From Candidatus Poseidoniaceae archaeon (GTDB lineage Archaea; Thermoplasmatota; Poseidoniia; Poseidoniales; Poseidoniaceae): a stretch of DNA of 47,528 nucleotides. Position 1 is the first letter of the stretch; each line of letters opens with the position of its first letter. The stretch is taken from contig JASLKC010000021.1 of assembly GCA_030747785.1 (NCBI GenBank), positions 1 to 47,528 of the forward strand, in the 5' to 3' direction. The position numbers and the translations under genes were made by a program. The notes under the pieces were generated by a model, which did not search any database, was not told the origin of the DNA, and worked only from the letters and a program-made list of their open reading frames with translations. This document shows, in pieces, positions 3 to 5,791 of the stretch.

Positions 3-710
3 CCTGCAGTCCACGTAGAATACGGCCTCCCTACTGCGATAAATGCTGGTGACGCTATGTTAGCAATTGCATTCGAAGCAATGGCAGTGGCTGAAGGAAT
101 TGAAAATGAGCAATTACCATTCTTGGTCAAGAGAATTGGAAGAATGGTCCGAAGAGTTTCCGAAGGACAGCAACTCGACATTGAGTTCGAAGACCGCCTT
201 GCGGTTAGTGAGGATGAATATCTAGAGATGATTCGAGGAAAAACAGCGGTTATGTTCCTTACATGTGCTGAGGTCGGAGCTCATCTTGCAGGTGCAGATG
301 AGGAAGTCATTGCTTGTATGCATGATTGGGGACTCGCTGTAGGAATGTGTTTCCAATTGATGGATGATTTGATCGATGTACTCTCAGATTCTGAAACTCT
401 TGGTAAGCCAAGTGGTAGCGATGTAGCTCAAGGAAAAAGGACACTGATGGTCATTCATGCACTATCTCAATCCTCGAGTCCTGCTAAGGATGACCTTCTT
501 GCGGTTCTAGGTAAGAATGAATCCGCCACACCTTCAATGGTCGATGCAGGACACAGAGCACTCGAAGAATTGGGCTCAATAGATTATGCTCGCCGTAAGG
601 CTGAGGCATACCATAGAGAAGCACATGCATGCTTAGATCGTCTAACTGAAGGCCCAGCGCTTGTAGCGCTTAGGGAGTTAACTGATTTCCAATTACAACG
701 TATTAGTTGA
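3..710 (+). CDS. Polyprenyl (geranylgeranyl/farnesyl-type) diphosphate synthase, 5' end missing
   Basis: The gene runs in from before the window; the open frame is already coding at base 3, so the start codon and the first Asp-rich motif are outside. The visible 235 residues begin with a stretch like P-A-V-H-V-E-Y-G-L-P and then INAGDAML, which is typical of trans-prenyl diphosphate synthases. The second Asp-rich motif is present as MDDLIDVLSD, followed by G-K-P-S-G-S-D and a K-R-T-L-M helix. These enzymes condense isopentenyl diphosphate with allylic diphosphates; in archaea they make the C15-C25 chains of ether lipids. Chain length cannot be judged because the residues before the first motif are missing. 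Its 3' end overlaps the convergent MOSC gene by 18 bases. Confidence 0.9.
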   Translation, partial: PAVHVEYGLPTAINAGDAMLAIAFEAMAVAEGIENEQLPFLVKRIGRMVRRVSEGQQLDIEFEDRLAVSEDEYLEMIRGKTAVMFLTCAEVGAHLAGADEEVIACMHDWGLAVGMCFQLMDDLIDVLSDSETLGKPSGSDVAQGKRTLMVIHALSQSSSPAKDDLLAVLGKNESATPSMVDAGHRALEELGSIDYARRKAEAYHREAHACLDRLTEGPALVALRELTDFQLQRIS

Positions 711-1174: not shown

Positions 1175-3382
1175 TCACTCTGCGTAGTAGGATTCCGGGT
1201 TAGGATCGGGCTTGAGTCCCTTCCTGGTTCGGATTTCACCGACTACCTTAGCGAATAATTGCGGAGGCAGTATCTCGAATCCAATGTTTTCGGAGTTCCA
1301 TATCGCACGTCCTTGGGATGCTGCTCTGATGTCATTGGAGAAACCAAAGGTTTCTGCAACAGGCAAAGTACCGATGACTGTAGTTACATCGCCATCAGAT
1401 GGCATGTCTTCGATGATTCCACGTCGATTAGAAATTTCACGGGTGACCTGGCCGAGCCAATCATTTGGTACGCTAACATGTGAGCGCTGCATTGGCTCCA
1501 TAATGACGGTACGTGCTCGAAGCATTGCACCTTTGATTCCGTTTCGAACCGCTGGAATAGTTTGTGCTGGTCCACGGTGAATTGCATCTTCGTGGAGTTT
1601 TGCATCTACTAGGCGAACCATCATTCCCATGACTGGTTCATCAGCGATTGGTCCCTTCTTACAGACTTCATTGAAAGCCTCGATAATGAGTTCACGAGTC
1701 TCGTGAAGTCCTTGGATACCTTTGGTATCATTGACTAGAACATTTGTTCCGAAAATCGAGTAAATCTTTCGCATCTTATCTTTGTCCATGCCTAATTCAC
1801 CGAACTTACGACCTATTTCCTTAGCATCGTTAGGGCGAACGTTTCCATTACCAAAGTGACCATCACGTAGTGCGGCTACTACCTCTGCAGGTAGTGGCTC
1901 ACATTCCATCATGAATCTGTTGTGACGATTTGGCGACTTGCCTTCAAAGCGGTTACCTCTATTGTTGCCTTCGACAGATTCTCTGTAAACGACAATTGGT
2001 GGACTAACCTTGACCTTGATACCTTGCTCCTCTTCTATTCTATATGTTGTAATCTCAAGGTGCAATTCACCCATACCTGCGAGAAGCGCTTCACCAGTTT
2101 CCTGATTTGTGCTTACTTGCAAGGAAGCATCTGCTTTTGCTAGGGAGCGAAGTGCGTCGATGAATTTTGGTAGATCTTTCATACTCTTAGGCTCGACAGC
2201 AACAGTGACCACAGGGTCAGAGTAGTGACGAATGGCCTCGAACGGAGTGAATTCATTATCACGAGAAAGGGTGACACCAGCAGCAGCGGAACGAATTCCG
2301 GTGATTGCTGCAATGTTTCCAGCTACAACAGTTGGCACGGTAATTCTATCTCCACCGACCATCATACTGACTTGTTGTACACGCTCTGACTTTGCACCAC
2401 CGATGGCATAAACTTGCTCACCTTGGCTAATTGAGCCTGAGTAAATACGTCCTACAGCAACTTCACCAGCATGTGGATCCATCCATATCTTAGTGATCAT
2501 CATTGCGAGTTCTGCTTCTGGATCGCAGTTAACCATTGCCTTTCCAATTGGACTTTCAAGATCTCCAGTCCAGATATTAGGGATACGATATGGCTGTGCT
2601 TCAACAGGGCCTGGCAACTTACTTACTGCCATATCGAGTAGAACTTCGTGCACAGGAGCCTTGCTTGCAAGTTCCTTTTGCTGTTCGTTATTACAATACT
2701 CGAAAATATCCGTGAAAGAAATACCGGACTTTGCCATGTATGGGACGGTTATGCCCCAGTTGTGGTAAGCGCTACCGAAAGCTACGGTTCCATCGCCGAC
2801 AGAGACTTGCCATGCTTTCTTCATTTCTTCAGGTGCAAATTGGCGAATCAATTTGTTAACCTTGGTGATAGTCTCCTTGAATCGCTCCATCATGTCTTCA
2901 GGAGTAACTTGTAATTCATTGATCAATCGGTCGACCTTGTTAATGAATAGAACAGGCTTGACCTTTTCCTTGAGTGCTTGTCGAACCACAGTCTCAGTTT
3001 GAGGCATTGGTCCTTCAACTGCACAAGCGAGGATGAAACATCCGTCAACTGCACGCATAGCACGGGTAACGTCGCCACCAAAGTCAACGTGCCCTGGTGT
3101 GTCAATGAGATTGATGAGGTAATCCGTTCCGTCGACTTCGTGCACCATTGATGCCGATGCCGCGTTAATGGTAATTCCACGTGCGCTCTCTTGGTCATCG
3201 AAATCTAGAACTCTACTTTTTCCAGCGAGTTCTTCACTCATCATTCCAGCACCTGCAATCAGGTTATCGGAGAGAGTTGTCTTTCCGTGGTCAATGTGAG
3301 CTGCGATGCATAGGTTACGAATTTGAGGTAGGATATGCATTACCTCAGTCGCCTTCTTGATGTTGTCTTCTTTACGGCCCAT
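1175..3382 (-). CDS. fusA: Translation elongation factor EF-2
   Basis: This is the 735-residue archaeal GTPase that moves tRNA and mRNA through the ribosome. The G domain shows AAHIDHGKTTLSDNL (G1), RGITI (G2), DTPGHVDF (G3) and NKVD (G4). Domain IV carries DAKLHEDAIHRGPAQ, the archaeal/eukaryotic diphthamide loop; the modified histidine should be about residue 602. Length and motifs are full-size, with no break. The ATG is preceded by an AGGTGA ribosome-binding site 6 bases upstream. It follows a desaturase gene by 105 bases instead of following S7 directly, and a perfect hairpin lies in that gap. Dph6, a diphthamide-pathway enzyme, is encoded at 14840-15490. Confidence 0.98.
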   Translation of the reverse strand: MGRKEDNIKKATEVMHILPQIRNLCIAAHIDHGKTTLSDNLIAGAGMMSEELAGKSRVLDFDDQESARGITINAASASMVHEVDGTDYLINLIDTPGHVDFGGDVTRAMRAVDGCFILACAVEGPMPQTETVVRQALKEKVKPVLFINKVDRLINELQVTPEDMMERFKETITKVNKLIRQFAPEEMKKAWQVSVGDGTVAFGSAYHNWGITVPYMAKSGISFTDIFEYCNNEQQKELASKAPVHEVLLDMAVSKLPGPVEAQPYRIPNIWTGDLESPIGKAMVNCDPEAELAMMITKIWMDPHAGEVAVGRIYSGSISQGEQVYAIGGAKSERVQQVSMMVGGDRITVPTVVAGNIAAITGIRSAAAGVTLSRDNEFTPFEAIRHYSDPVVTVAVEPKSMKDLPKFIDALRSLAKADASLQVSTNQETGEALLAGMGELHLEITTYRIEEEQGIKVKVSPPIVVYRESVEGNNRGNRFEGKSPNRHNRFMMECEPLPAEVVAALRDGHFGNGNVRPNDAKEIGRKFGELGMDKDKMRKIYSIFGTNVLVNDTKGIQGLHETRELIIEAFNEVCKKGPIADEPVMGMMVRLVDAKLHEDAIHRGPAQTIPAVRNGIKGAMLRARTVIMEPMQRSHVSVPNDWLGQVTREISNRRGIIEDMPSDGDVTTVIGTLPVAETFGFSNDIRAASQGRAIWNSENIGFEILPPQLFAKVVGEIRTRKGLKPDPNPESYYAE

Positions 3383-3439
3383 GCTGAATCACCTGACTCT
3401 CGTCGCCCTTCGCCACCTTCAAGGGGTTTATGAAATCGA

Positions 3440-3454
3440 CTCCCCGTAGGGGAG
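3440..3454. terminator. Perfect GC-rich hairpin between desaturase and EF-2
   Basis: CTCCCC and GGGGAG form a perfect 6-base-pair stem with a GTA loop. It lies 33 bases after the desaturase stop codon and 58 bases before the EF-2 start. On the minus strand it is followed by GTCGATTTCATAAA, which is only weakly T-rich and could instead contain a TATA-like element for EF-2. It may end desaturase transcripts, or it may sit in the EF-2 leader or promoter; sequence alone does not decide. Confidence 0.45.
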
Positions 3455-3487: not shown

Positions 3488-4630
3488 TCAGGCCATACTT
3501 ACAATGCCAATATTCATCTCCGCAAATATGGCCTTCATGTCCCGATTTAGTGTTTCAAGTCTAACTCTCATTTCAGAAATTCTTACTTTGATAACTTCCT
3601 TGGAATTTTCCATTGCTACTTTGAGGTCTTCTTTCGCCTTATGTATCTCAAACATACATGTTCGTAGAGCATCTCGACATTGATTGTGACGTTTCTCAAA
3701 TAATGTCGTATCAACATTTTCCTTTGCCAACATTTCCTTGCAACGTTTGAATTGGGTATCGATTTTGGCTATTTCTATGGAGTGCTTTGGCGTACGCTTT
3801 AGATTGGATTTTAGATGCACTAATCGGAATGCATTGATCCACCACTTTGAAGGGTCCACATGGAACCACTTGTGGCCATTTCGGTAATCGGCCTGGAAGG
3901 TGTGGTGGAAGTTATGGTATCCTTCACCGAAGGTTAAGAAGGCTAACCAGAATGAGTCACGGCTCGAGTTATCATCTGAATATGGCTGAGTTCCCCAAAT
4001 ATGTGCAGCAGAATTAATCAAAAATGTGCCATGATGAACAAATACAGTTCTTGCGAGTCCTCCCCATACAAAGCAACCTACTGCAACGGCGAGTCCACCC
4101 CACAGATAGCCTAGCAGAGCAGGTAGTACAAATCCAGATAATGCGCCAATTAGGAAAATATTCCTATGTTGCCAGCGTAGTATTTTACTCGCGTTTAAAT
4201 CTTTTACATTTGCAAAATCATTTGAATGAATATCTTCGTCTATCATTACCCACCCCATATGGGAATACCAGAACCCACGAGATGCGCTATATGGGTCTTC
4301 TAATGAATCGGTTTTTCGGTGGTGGTTACGGTGGTCGCTTGACCACTCGATTACCGAGTTTTGGAATGCCCCTGCTCCAAATATTGCATAGAATAGAACA
4401 AGAGGCCAACTCGCATCATGTGACCGATGACTGAATAGTCGATGATATCCTACAGTAATTGAGAGGCCACAAGCAAAATACATTGCAATAAAGATGACAA
4501 ATTCTCCCCATCCTGGCGGCCCGAGATAGAGCCAATGTGCAATGATGCCTACTACGGCGAAAAATGGAACCAATACTAGAAAACTTGAGTTCAGCCAGTT
4601 GATTTTTGAAAGACTCCCTACCTCGTCCAT
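3488..4630 (-). CDS. Delta-9-type fatty acyl desaturase with C-terminal coiled coil
   Basis: This 380-residue membrane di-iron enzyme has all three histidine boxes of the acyl-CoA/acyl-lipid delta-9 desaturase family: HRLFSH (63-68), HRNHH (100-104) and HNFHH (239-243), plus the typical NSAAHIWGTQPY segment (206-217). Hydrophobic segments lie near 15-35, 42-60, 76-95 and 155-195. Such enzymes use O2 to put a cis double bond into a saturated acyl chain. Residues about 285-370 are an added charged helical region with Lys/Glu heptads, probably a coiled coil, not part of the catalytic core. The gene sits between S7 and EF-2, where archaea normally have nothing. Inverted repeats on both sides suggest its own control. 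A fatty-acid desaturase in an ether-lipid archaeon is unexpected, and transfer from bacteria is likely but inferred. Confidence 0.93.
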   Translation of the reverse strand: MDEVGSLSKINWLNSSFLVLVPFFAVVGIIAHWLYLGPPGWGEFVIFIAMYFACGLSITVGYHRLFSHRSHDASWPLVLFYAIFGAGAFQNSVIEWSSDHRNHHRKTDSLEDPYSASRGFWYSHMGWVMIDEDIHSNDFANVKDLNASKILRWQHRNIFLIGALSGFVLPALLGYLWGGLAVAVGCFVWGGLARTVFVHHGTFLINSAAHIWGTQPYSDDNSSRDSFWLAFLTFGEGYHNFHHTFQADYRNGHKWFHVDPSKWWINAFRLVHLKSNLKRTPKHSIEIAKIDTQFKRCKEMLAKENVDTTLFEKRHNQCRDALRTCMFEIHKAKEDLKVAMENSKEVIKVRISEMRVRLETLNRDMKAIFAEMNIGIVSMA

Positions 4631-4654
4631 ATCGAGCGCGTTTTAACGAACCCT

Positions 4655-4704
4655 CTTGACCATATGGGTCAAGTGATATTGTCAGCAGTACCTTTTGGGA
4701 CAAT
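4655..4704. promoter_or_regulatory. Two adjacent inverted repeats between S7 and the desaturase
   Basis: The 80-base gap holds two perfect inverted repeats. CTTGACC (4655-4661) pairs with GGTCAAG (4667-4673) around a 5-base centre, and ATTGTC (4678-4683) pairs with GACAAT (4699-4704) around 15 bases. Read on the minus strand, the second comes first after the S7 stop codon and could mark transcript termination. The first lies 25 bases before the desaturase start, where a repressor site would be expected. No factor can be named. Confidence 0.4.
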
Positions 4705-4710
4705 ATGTAA

Positions 4711-5349
4711 TCAGCGAGCACTTGAAGCAATGCGCTGAACTTCTTCTTTCTTCGCAACAGCGAAGGAAGTAACGTCTCCCTTGGAAGCCTTGGATAATTC
4801 ATTTACAATACATTGCTTCAGGGTGCGCTTGGACTTGGATGTTCCTTGCTGAGCACCCTTTGCAAGATTTGCAAGTGCTACATCTAGGCGTCGTGACGGA
4901 GAACTGTCAACAGCCTTTGGTTGGGATACTGCACCGAATTTGATTCGAGTGATCTCTTCCATTGGAGCTGCAAAGCAGATAGCATCAACAAGTGCCTGTA
5001 GTGGATTTTCTCCACTTCGCTCTCCAATTTCATCAAGCGCTTCTTCGAAAGCCTTCATTGCACCTTGCTTCTTACCGGTATATTTGCCAGTACGCATGAG
5101 TTTGTTGATGAAACGCTCGACGACGGATAGGCGCGCCTTTCCAAACCAAGCGTTAGCATGACGGCCACCAGTATGAGGTGTGCCTACGGTGCTGAGGTTG
5201 ATGTATGGTGCAAGTCCAGGGTCTCGACAGACCACTGTAGCTGCATCGTACTTACCGAAAACGAGAGTTCCAATTCCTGCGATAGGACGCACCGGAGGGG
5301 CTTCCTCTTCTGCTTCCTCTGTGGTGGTGACTTCTTCTTCTTCACTCAT
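4711..5349 (-). CDS. rps7: 30S ribosomal protein S7 (uS7)
   Basis: The protein is 212 residues when started at the ATG at 5349, which gives MSEEEE and has a GGAG ribosome-binding site about 8 bases upstream. The open frame reaches back to 5568 but that part overlaps S12 and is not S7-like. The core is recognisable from GRHANAWFGKARLSVVERFINKLMR-type sequence (about residues 70-95), followed by the helix starting NPLQALVDAI and the basic GAVSQPKAVDSSPSRRLDVA region. S7 binds the 3' domain of 16S rRNA and contacts the exit-site tRNA. An acidic N-terminal extension of about 25 residues, rich in Glu and Thr, precedes the core. It lies 13 bases after S12 in the str operon. Confidence 0.96.
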   Translation of the reverse strand: MSEEEEVTTTEEAEEEAPPVRPIAGIGTLVFGKYDAATVVCRDPGLAPYINLSTVGTPHTGGRHANAWFGKARLSVVERFINKLMRTGKYTGKKQGAMKAFEEALDEIGERSGENPLQALVDAICFAAPMEEITRIKFGAVSQPKAVDSSPSRRLDVALANLAKGAQQGTSKSKRTLKQCIVNELSKASKGDVTSFAVAKKEEVQRIASSAR

Positions 5350-5362
5350 CTGAATTTCTCCA

Positions 5363-5791
5363 TCAACGGACTGGCTTCTCTTTTCGGCCACGGACCATCT
5401 CATCGAGTGAGACGCCATTGACCTGAATGACCTTGTATCGGACACCGGGGATATCTCCATAGGAACGTCCCATGCGGCCACCGATACCTTCGACCATGAC
5501 CTCATCGTGTTCGTCGATGAAGTTGATTGCACCATCACCAGGTGCGAATGCTGTGAGTTTGTTACCATTCTTGATCAATGCAATCTTCACAGCCTTACGA
5601 ATTCCAGAATTTGGTTGCTTTGCTTCGATACCGACCTTTTCGATGACGATACCTGTTGCTTGAGTTGAACCTGCAAGCGGGTCGTGGCGTGCACGAGATT
5701 TGAGCATACGCTTCTTGTAACGTCGATCTGACCACCTAAACTTTTGACGGTCCTTTGCCATCTTGCTACCTGCGAACAGTCCACGTCCCAT
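5363..5791 (-). CDS. rps12: 30S ribosomal protein S12 (uS12)
   Basis: This 142-residue protein shows the archaeal/eukaryotic (S23-type) S12 pattern: basic N-terminus [19 protein letters not shown], then [20 protein letters not shown], which contains the [13 protein letters not shown] decoding-site loop, and the [14 protein letters not shown] segment near the end. S12 lines the decoding centre. It is the first gene of the minus-strand ribosomal operon here, with GGAG-type ribosome-binding sequence upstream of the ATG. S7 follows after 13 bases. Rpl30e, NusA and RNA polymerase genes that often precede S12 in archaea are not next to it; a divergent UbiD gene is. Confidence 0.97.

Follow-up and report, generated by a model that had tools for sequence, protein, structure and literature searches.

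Why does a complete membrane acyl desaturase gene lie between the genes for ribosomal protein S7 and elongation factor EF-2 in an archaeon, and what could its product do there? The question arises from the window, that is, the whole 47,528-nucleotide stretch of DNA analysed here, from a Candidatus Poseidoniaceae archaeon (source assembly of 1.83 Mb, 86% completeness). An earlier note on this DNA had read the gene order as S12-S7-desaturase-EF-2, and our ORF reading and profile searches give the same order on the minus strand, with coordinates and family matches in agreement (Table 1). Spacers of 80 nt and 105 nt separate the desaturase from S7 and EF-2, respectively. The account that we favor, with a probability of roughly 0.7, is that an acquired SCD-type desaturase became fixed at a tolerant site and desaturates the acyl chains of membrane lipids.

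Table 1. Coordinates of the features discussed, in the window unless a locus (L) is named
Feature	Position	Strand	Remarks
Ribosomal protein S12	5363..5791	-	ORF and profile match
Ribosomal protein S7	4711..5325	-	conserved part, ~205 aa; longest ORF begins at 5568
Conserved block in the S7-desaturase spacer	4649..4672	-	TTGACC-CATAT-GGTCAA, then GAGGGTT; possible promoter/operator
Membrane acyl desaturase	3488..4630	-	380 aa; SCD-like first-desaturase with three His boxes
Predicted C-terminal helix of the desaturase	3494..3706	-	71 residues (309-379), beyond the SCD1-aligned region
Conserved element upstream of EF-2	3383..3441	-	agtcgatttcataaacccc...gtcaggtgattcagc; putative promoter-like site and Shine-Dalgarno sequence
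Elongation factor EF-2	1175..3382	-	TIGR00490, 1034 bits
PfaA-like 3000-aa fatty-acid/polyketide megasynthase	L142:483-7246, L143:4468-14942		FabI-like and PPTase-like neighbors
Unrelated ORFs at the S7-EF-2 junction, genus g10	L121:3776-4225, L123:3824-4552		

Judged from sequence comparison and structure prediction, the gene encodes a genuine, functional-looking membrane acyl desaturase of the SCD type. Its ORF is complete from ATG to stop, its product scores 59.6 bits against Pfam FA_desaturase (PF00487; gathering cut-off, 29.7), and its best phmmer match is mouse SCD1 (4ymk; E = 4.6e-45, residues 12-285). The nine metal-ligand histidines of the SCD type (H63, H68, H100, H103, H104, H210, H239, H242, and H243) and N206 are invariant in an alignment of 46 homologues, confirming the earlier reading of a complete desaturase with intact His boxes. 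An AlphaFold model (pLDDT 91.0, pTM 0.83) is matched by Foldseek to SCD1 4ymk with a TM score of 0.82 normalized by the target (E = 1.6e-17); the phmmer match and this predicted SCD1 fold are consistent with an intact delta-9-type enzyme, as had been proposed. The predicted C-terminal helix is also aligned by many bacterial homologues. Two other identities were considered and rejected: the DesA family NF049918 is the sole NCBIfam match, at 67 bits far under its curated cut-off of 400, and alkane 1-monooxygenase (AlkB) finds no place among the structure matches, which are to SCD1 entries only. The second PF00487 gene of the source genome (L001:1207-2199, contig C19) is likewise no paralogous desaturase; it is AlkB-like (8f6t, E = 1e-34), and AlkB-homologue matches occur in 23 of 32 Poseidoniales genomes.

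A bacterial-type protein inside an archaeal MAG could point to an assembly chimera or contamination, and the earlier note had named absence from all close relatives as the sign of such an artifact. Homologues are instead present in 45 of 99 relatives searched. Among the loci, which were fetched for the best homologue-bearing relatives only, S7 adjoins the desaturase in 22 species-level genomes (the window's own genome included) from three genera and two families, namely, the window's genus g1, genus g6, and genus g17 of the other family. EF-2 follows directly in 21 of the 22, and in the remaining one the contig ends; genus g2 carries a variant in which the desaturase adjoins EF-2 and UbiD lies upstream. 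This distribution across genera indicates that the arrangement is real and old, and the scan of related genomes that had been proposed thus recovers the same insertion. Since the junction recurs in many independent assemblies and the archaeal sequences are monophyletic, we regard the probability of a chimera or contamination as negligible.

The gene is not confined to this site. In several genera it lies away from the EF-2 junction, next to genes for a mechanosensitive channel, SRP19, an aminotransferase, DNA polymerase B, a GDSL lipase, an OYE-type oxidoreductase, a nucleotidyltransferase, or a paa-like cluster, and these neighbors have no common theme and give no functional clue. SCD-like genes at E values up to 1e-30 are found in 35 of 293 genomes drawn from the phylum; those outside the order score lower, with matches that cover ~250 to 280 positions only. 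Several records call for separate mention: viral contigs (L154-L167) carry distant SCD-like desaturases (27-44% identity); desaturase records titled Rhodobiaceae (L028) and Akkermansia muciniphila (L055) look misbinned or mistitled, the former falling inside the Poseidoniales clade; and in one single-contig genome (G036:C1:825666-826621) the match is split into two stretches, possibly a pseudogene. Our search of the open-access literature yielded no report of this desaturase, and searches for acyl desaturases of Marine Group II (MGII; Ca. Poseidoniales) gave only the carotenoid desaturase CrtD.

Does the location carry meaning? The earlier note had suggested that the gene's place in a translation operon could link membrane tuning to growth; a link by way of co-transcription with S7 and EF-2 would fit the common strand, the short distances to both neighbors, and the order kept across genera. 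EF-2, however, keeps an upstream element of its own: the last 59 nt before the gene hold a TATA-like ATTTgATAAACCCC and the Shine-Dalgarno sequence AGGTGAT, the element is present in g1 loci both with and without the desaturase, and the last 70 nt have a mean identity of 86% among the desaturase-bearing g1 loci. The spacer before the desaturase is less conserved (mean identity, 51%), yet it contains its own conserved block, whose TTGACC-CATAT-GGTCAA is an inverted repeat (window 4656-4672) and a possible operator. A perfect hairpin, CTCCCC-TAC-GGGGAG, lies past the desaturase stop and just ahead of the EF-2 element (window 3440-3454). Also against coupling, the desaturase is elsewhere in other genera, has been lost with scars left behind, and is replaced in genus g10 by unrelated ORFs at the same junction (149 aa in one genome; 242 aa and membrane-like in another), neither with a Pfam match. 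The description "inside the operon" therefore stands as gene order; given the two spacers and the separate EF-2 element, it does not by itself extend to co-transcription, and we consider growth coupling improbable. We read the S7-EF-2 junction as a tolerant insertion site, and the place of the desaturase beside EF-2 is probably incidental.

As the earlier note had proposed, we compared the desaturase with bacterial relatives: a quick tree groups 56 Poseidoniales-type sequences in a single clade (100, a starred branch) that adjoins sequences from Verrucomicrobiota, Elusimicrobiota, and Bdellovibrionota. From the root that we infer, a Poseidoniales ancestor would have gained the SCD-type membrane-bound first-desaturase, probably from bacteria, and the gene would then have settled for good in the gap that separates S7 from the upstream element of EF-2. 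The desaturase is under strong purifying selection, with dN/dS values of 0.045 to 0.071 in eight close pairs. Mapped on an EF-2 tree, its presence at the EF-2 site requires at least eight changes, five of them forced by starred branches. Some relatives have lost the gene and keep a scar of its 3' end: in a g1 locus without the desaturase (L114), ~50 nt match the desaturase 3' end and the downstream spacer (alignment score of 79; shuffled sequences reach at most 26), and shorter scars are found in L118 and L119 (scores of 41 and 39, against 24 and 26), while L115, L116, L117, and L127 show no scar above shuffled background. Two genomes of genus g11 (G043 and G209) have a g1-like copy, which in G043 does not lie at the EF-2 site, and this pattern suggests transfer between genera.

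The earlier note had started from the premise that archaeal lipids are isoprenoid ethers. For Poseidoniales, a purely isoprenoid membrane is doubtful. Not one of 270 Poseidoniales MAGs has a gene for the enzyme of the archaeal glycerol backbone, and G3P dehydrogenase occurs widely (PMC6461757). Villanueva et al., as cited in PMC6962369, reported PlsC and a putative pathway for fatty acids, and waters dominated by MGII did not yield classical archaeal lipids (PMC6461757, PMC6962369). Our scans agree in that the G1P dehydrogenase family was absent from all six genomes scanned; GGGP synthase was present in all six, and a PlsC-type acyltransferase Pfam occurs in 32 of 32 genomes. A candidate source of chains was also found. 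The relative G025 encodes a ~3000-aa megasynthase with KS, AT, ACP (several), KR, and DH domains, which scores 974 bits against the PfaA model, just under the cut-off of 1010, and is flanked by a FabI-like gene before and a PPTase-like gene after it; the source genome holds the same FabI-like gene and the first 1991 aa of the megasynthase, at which point its contig ends. All 17 desaturase-positive genomes tested have a ketoacyl-synthase megasynthase, and the five genomes without one (G060, G061, G063, G065, and G068) all lack the desaturase, a co-occurrence with a chance of ~0.015 by simple counting uncorrected for kinship. Several relatives have the megasynthase without the desaturase, so that the desaturase is dispensable, which we count against our account; we do the same with lipidomics of MGII-dominated water, in which no abundant lipid of an unusual kind could be assigned to MGII (PMC6962369). 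The presence of the desaturase nonetheless suggests that fatty acids of the bacterial style really are part of Poseidoniales membranes.

The role of the enzyme is thus likely to be the desaturation of real acyl chains, the substrate for which the earlier note had allowed alongside an isoprenoid. For the latter, meaning a chain of isoprenoid or carotenoid type in an archaeal ether lipid, one could cite the retained GGGP synthase and the polyprenyl synthase gene close by (window 57-710). That prenyl-synthase gene, however, adjoins EF-2 whether the desaturase is present or absent, the bacterial homologues are 39-48% identical, and the genome has a source of straight acyl chains. The position of SCD1 Y104, which we take to be the chain-end residue, is also conserved (Y51), and with nothing found in its support an isoprenoid substrate seems to us very unlikely.

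Which head group carries the chain is a finer question. Mouse SCD1 R151, R184, and K185, the residues that contact CoA in the SCD1 structures, correspond in the alignment to S98, D131, and E132 of the desaturase, so that the positive residues of an acyl-CoA desaturase are missing. Net charge at the three positions is 0 to -2 in 24 of 24 archaeal rows; the 22 bacterial rows span -1 to +2, and SCD1 has +3. The variation among bacterial homologues counts against our account. In the plant enzyme ADS1, loss of positive charge at the CoA site goes with acyl-lipid specificity (PMC5037126). The loss of these charges, mostly to acidic residues, favors an acyl-lipid over an acyl-CoA substrate, insofar as aligned residues and analogy can indicate it. 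Human SCD1 W262 (mouse W258), reported to keep the chain in place when delta-9 is desaturated (PMC5037126), is replaced by Phe, and cytochrome b5 (PF00173) as electron donor had no match in 18 incomplete genomes in a search confined to that family; both observations count against our account.

Alternatively, the enzyme could act as an acyl-CoA desaturase on scavenged fatty acids bound for storage or degradation rather than for membrane lipids. Fatty acids are not usually desaturated in the course of their breakdown, and the CoA-site charges are gone, with acids in most places. On the other side stand the SCD1-like predicted fold, the fatty-acid degradation genes published for all genera (PMC6461757), and one desaturase (L041) that lies among genes for enoyl-CoA hydratase and 3-hydroxyacyl-CoA dehydrogenase, although a PaaA-like gene in that neighborhood makes it look like a phenylacetate cluster. 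We judge this alternative unlikely and retain the membrane-lipid reading. Under the latter, a di-iron centre and O2 would introduce a first cis double bond, probably at delta-9, into a C16-C18 acyl chain that is made by the PfaA-like megasynthase and FabI or is scavenged; the head group would more likely be a glycerolipid than CoA, and the double bonds would adjust how fluid the acyl-containing membrane lipids are. The more specific proposal that MGII builds acyl glycerolipids with the PfaA-like synthase and modifies them in situ by means of an acyl-lipid desaturase, as bacteria adjust fluidity, is tentative, and we hold it at somewhat less than even odds. If true, it would describe an archaeon with bacterial-style control of membrane fluidity. 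MGII are among the most abundant archaea of the surface ocean, and an acyl desaturase in this group bears on the question of the "lipid divide"; a conserved desaturase under selection that shares its genomes with an acyl megasynthase is independent genomic evidence for the importance of acyl chains to these cells.

Compared with known systems, the window protein resembles mammalian SCD1 (4ymk, 4zyo) in predicted fold, in the nine His and one Asn ligands, and at the Y104 position, and differs from it in the S/D/E and Phe replacements, in its long C-terminal helix, and in the lack of cytochrome b5 in the genomes searched. The bacterial long-form SCD-like desaturases (Verrucomicrobiota, Elusimicrobiota, Bdellovibrionota, and Gammaproteobacteria) mostly align over nearly the full length, C-terminal part included; they lie outside the archaeal clade, and the charge at their head-group site is more varied. 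With the plant ADS1 acyl-lipid first desaturases, likened here by published description, the protein shares both the family and the lost positive charge at the CoA site.
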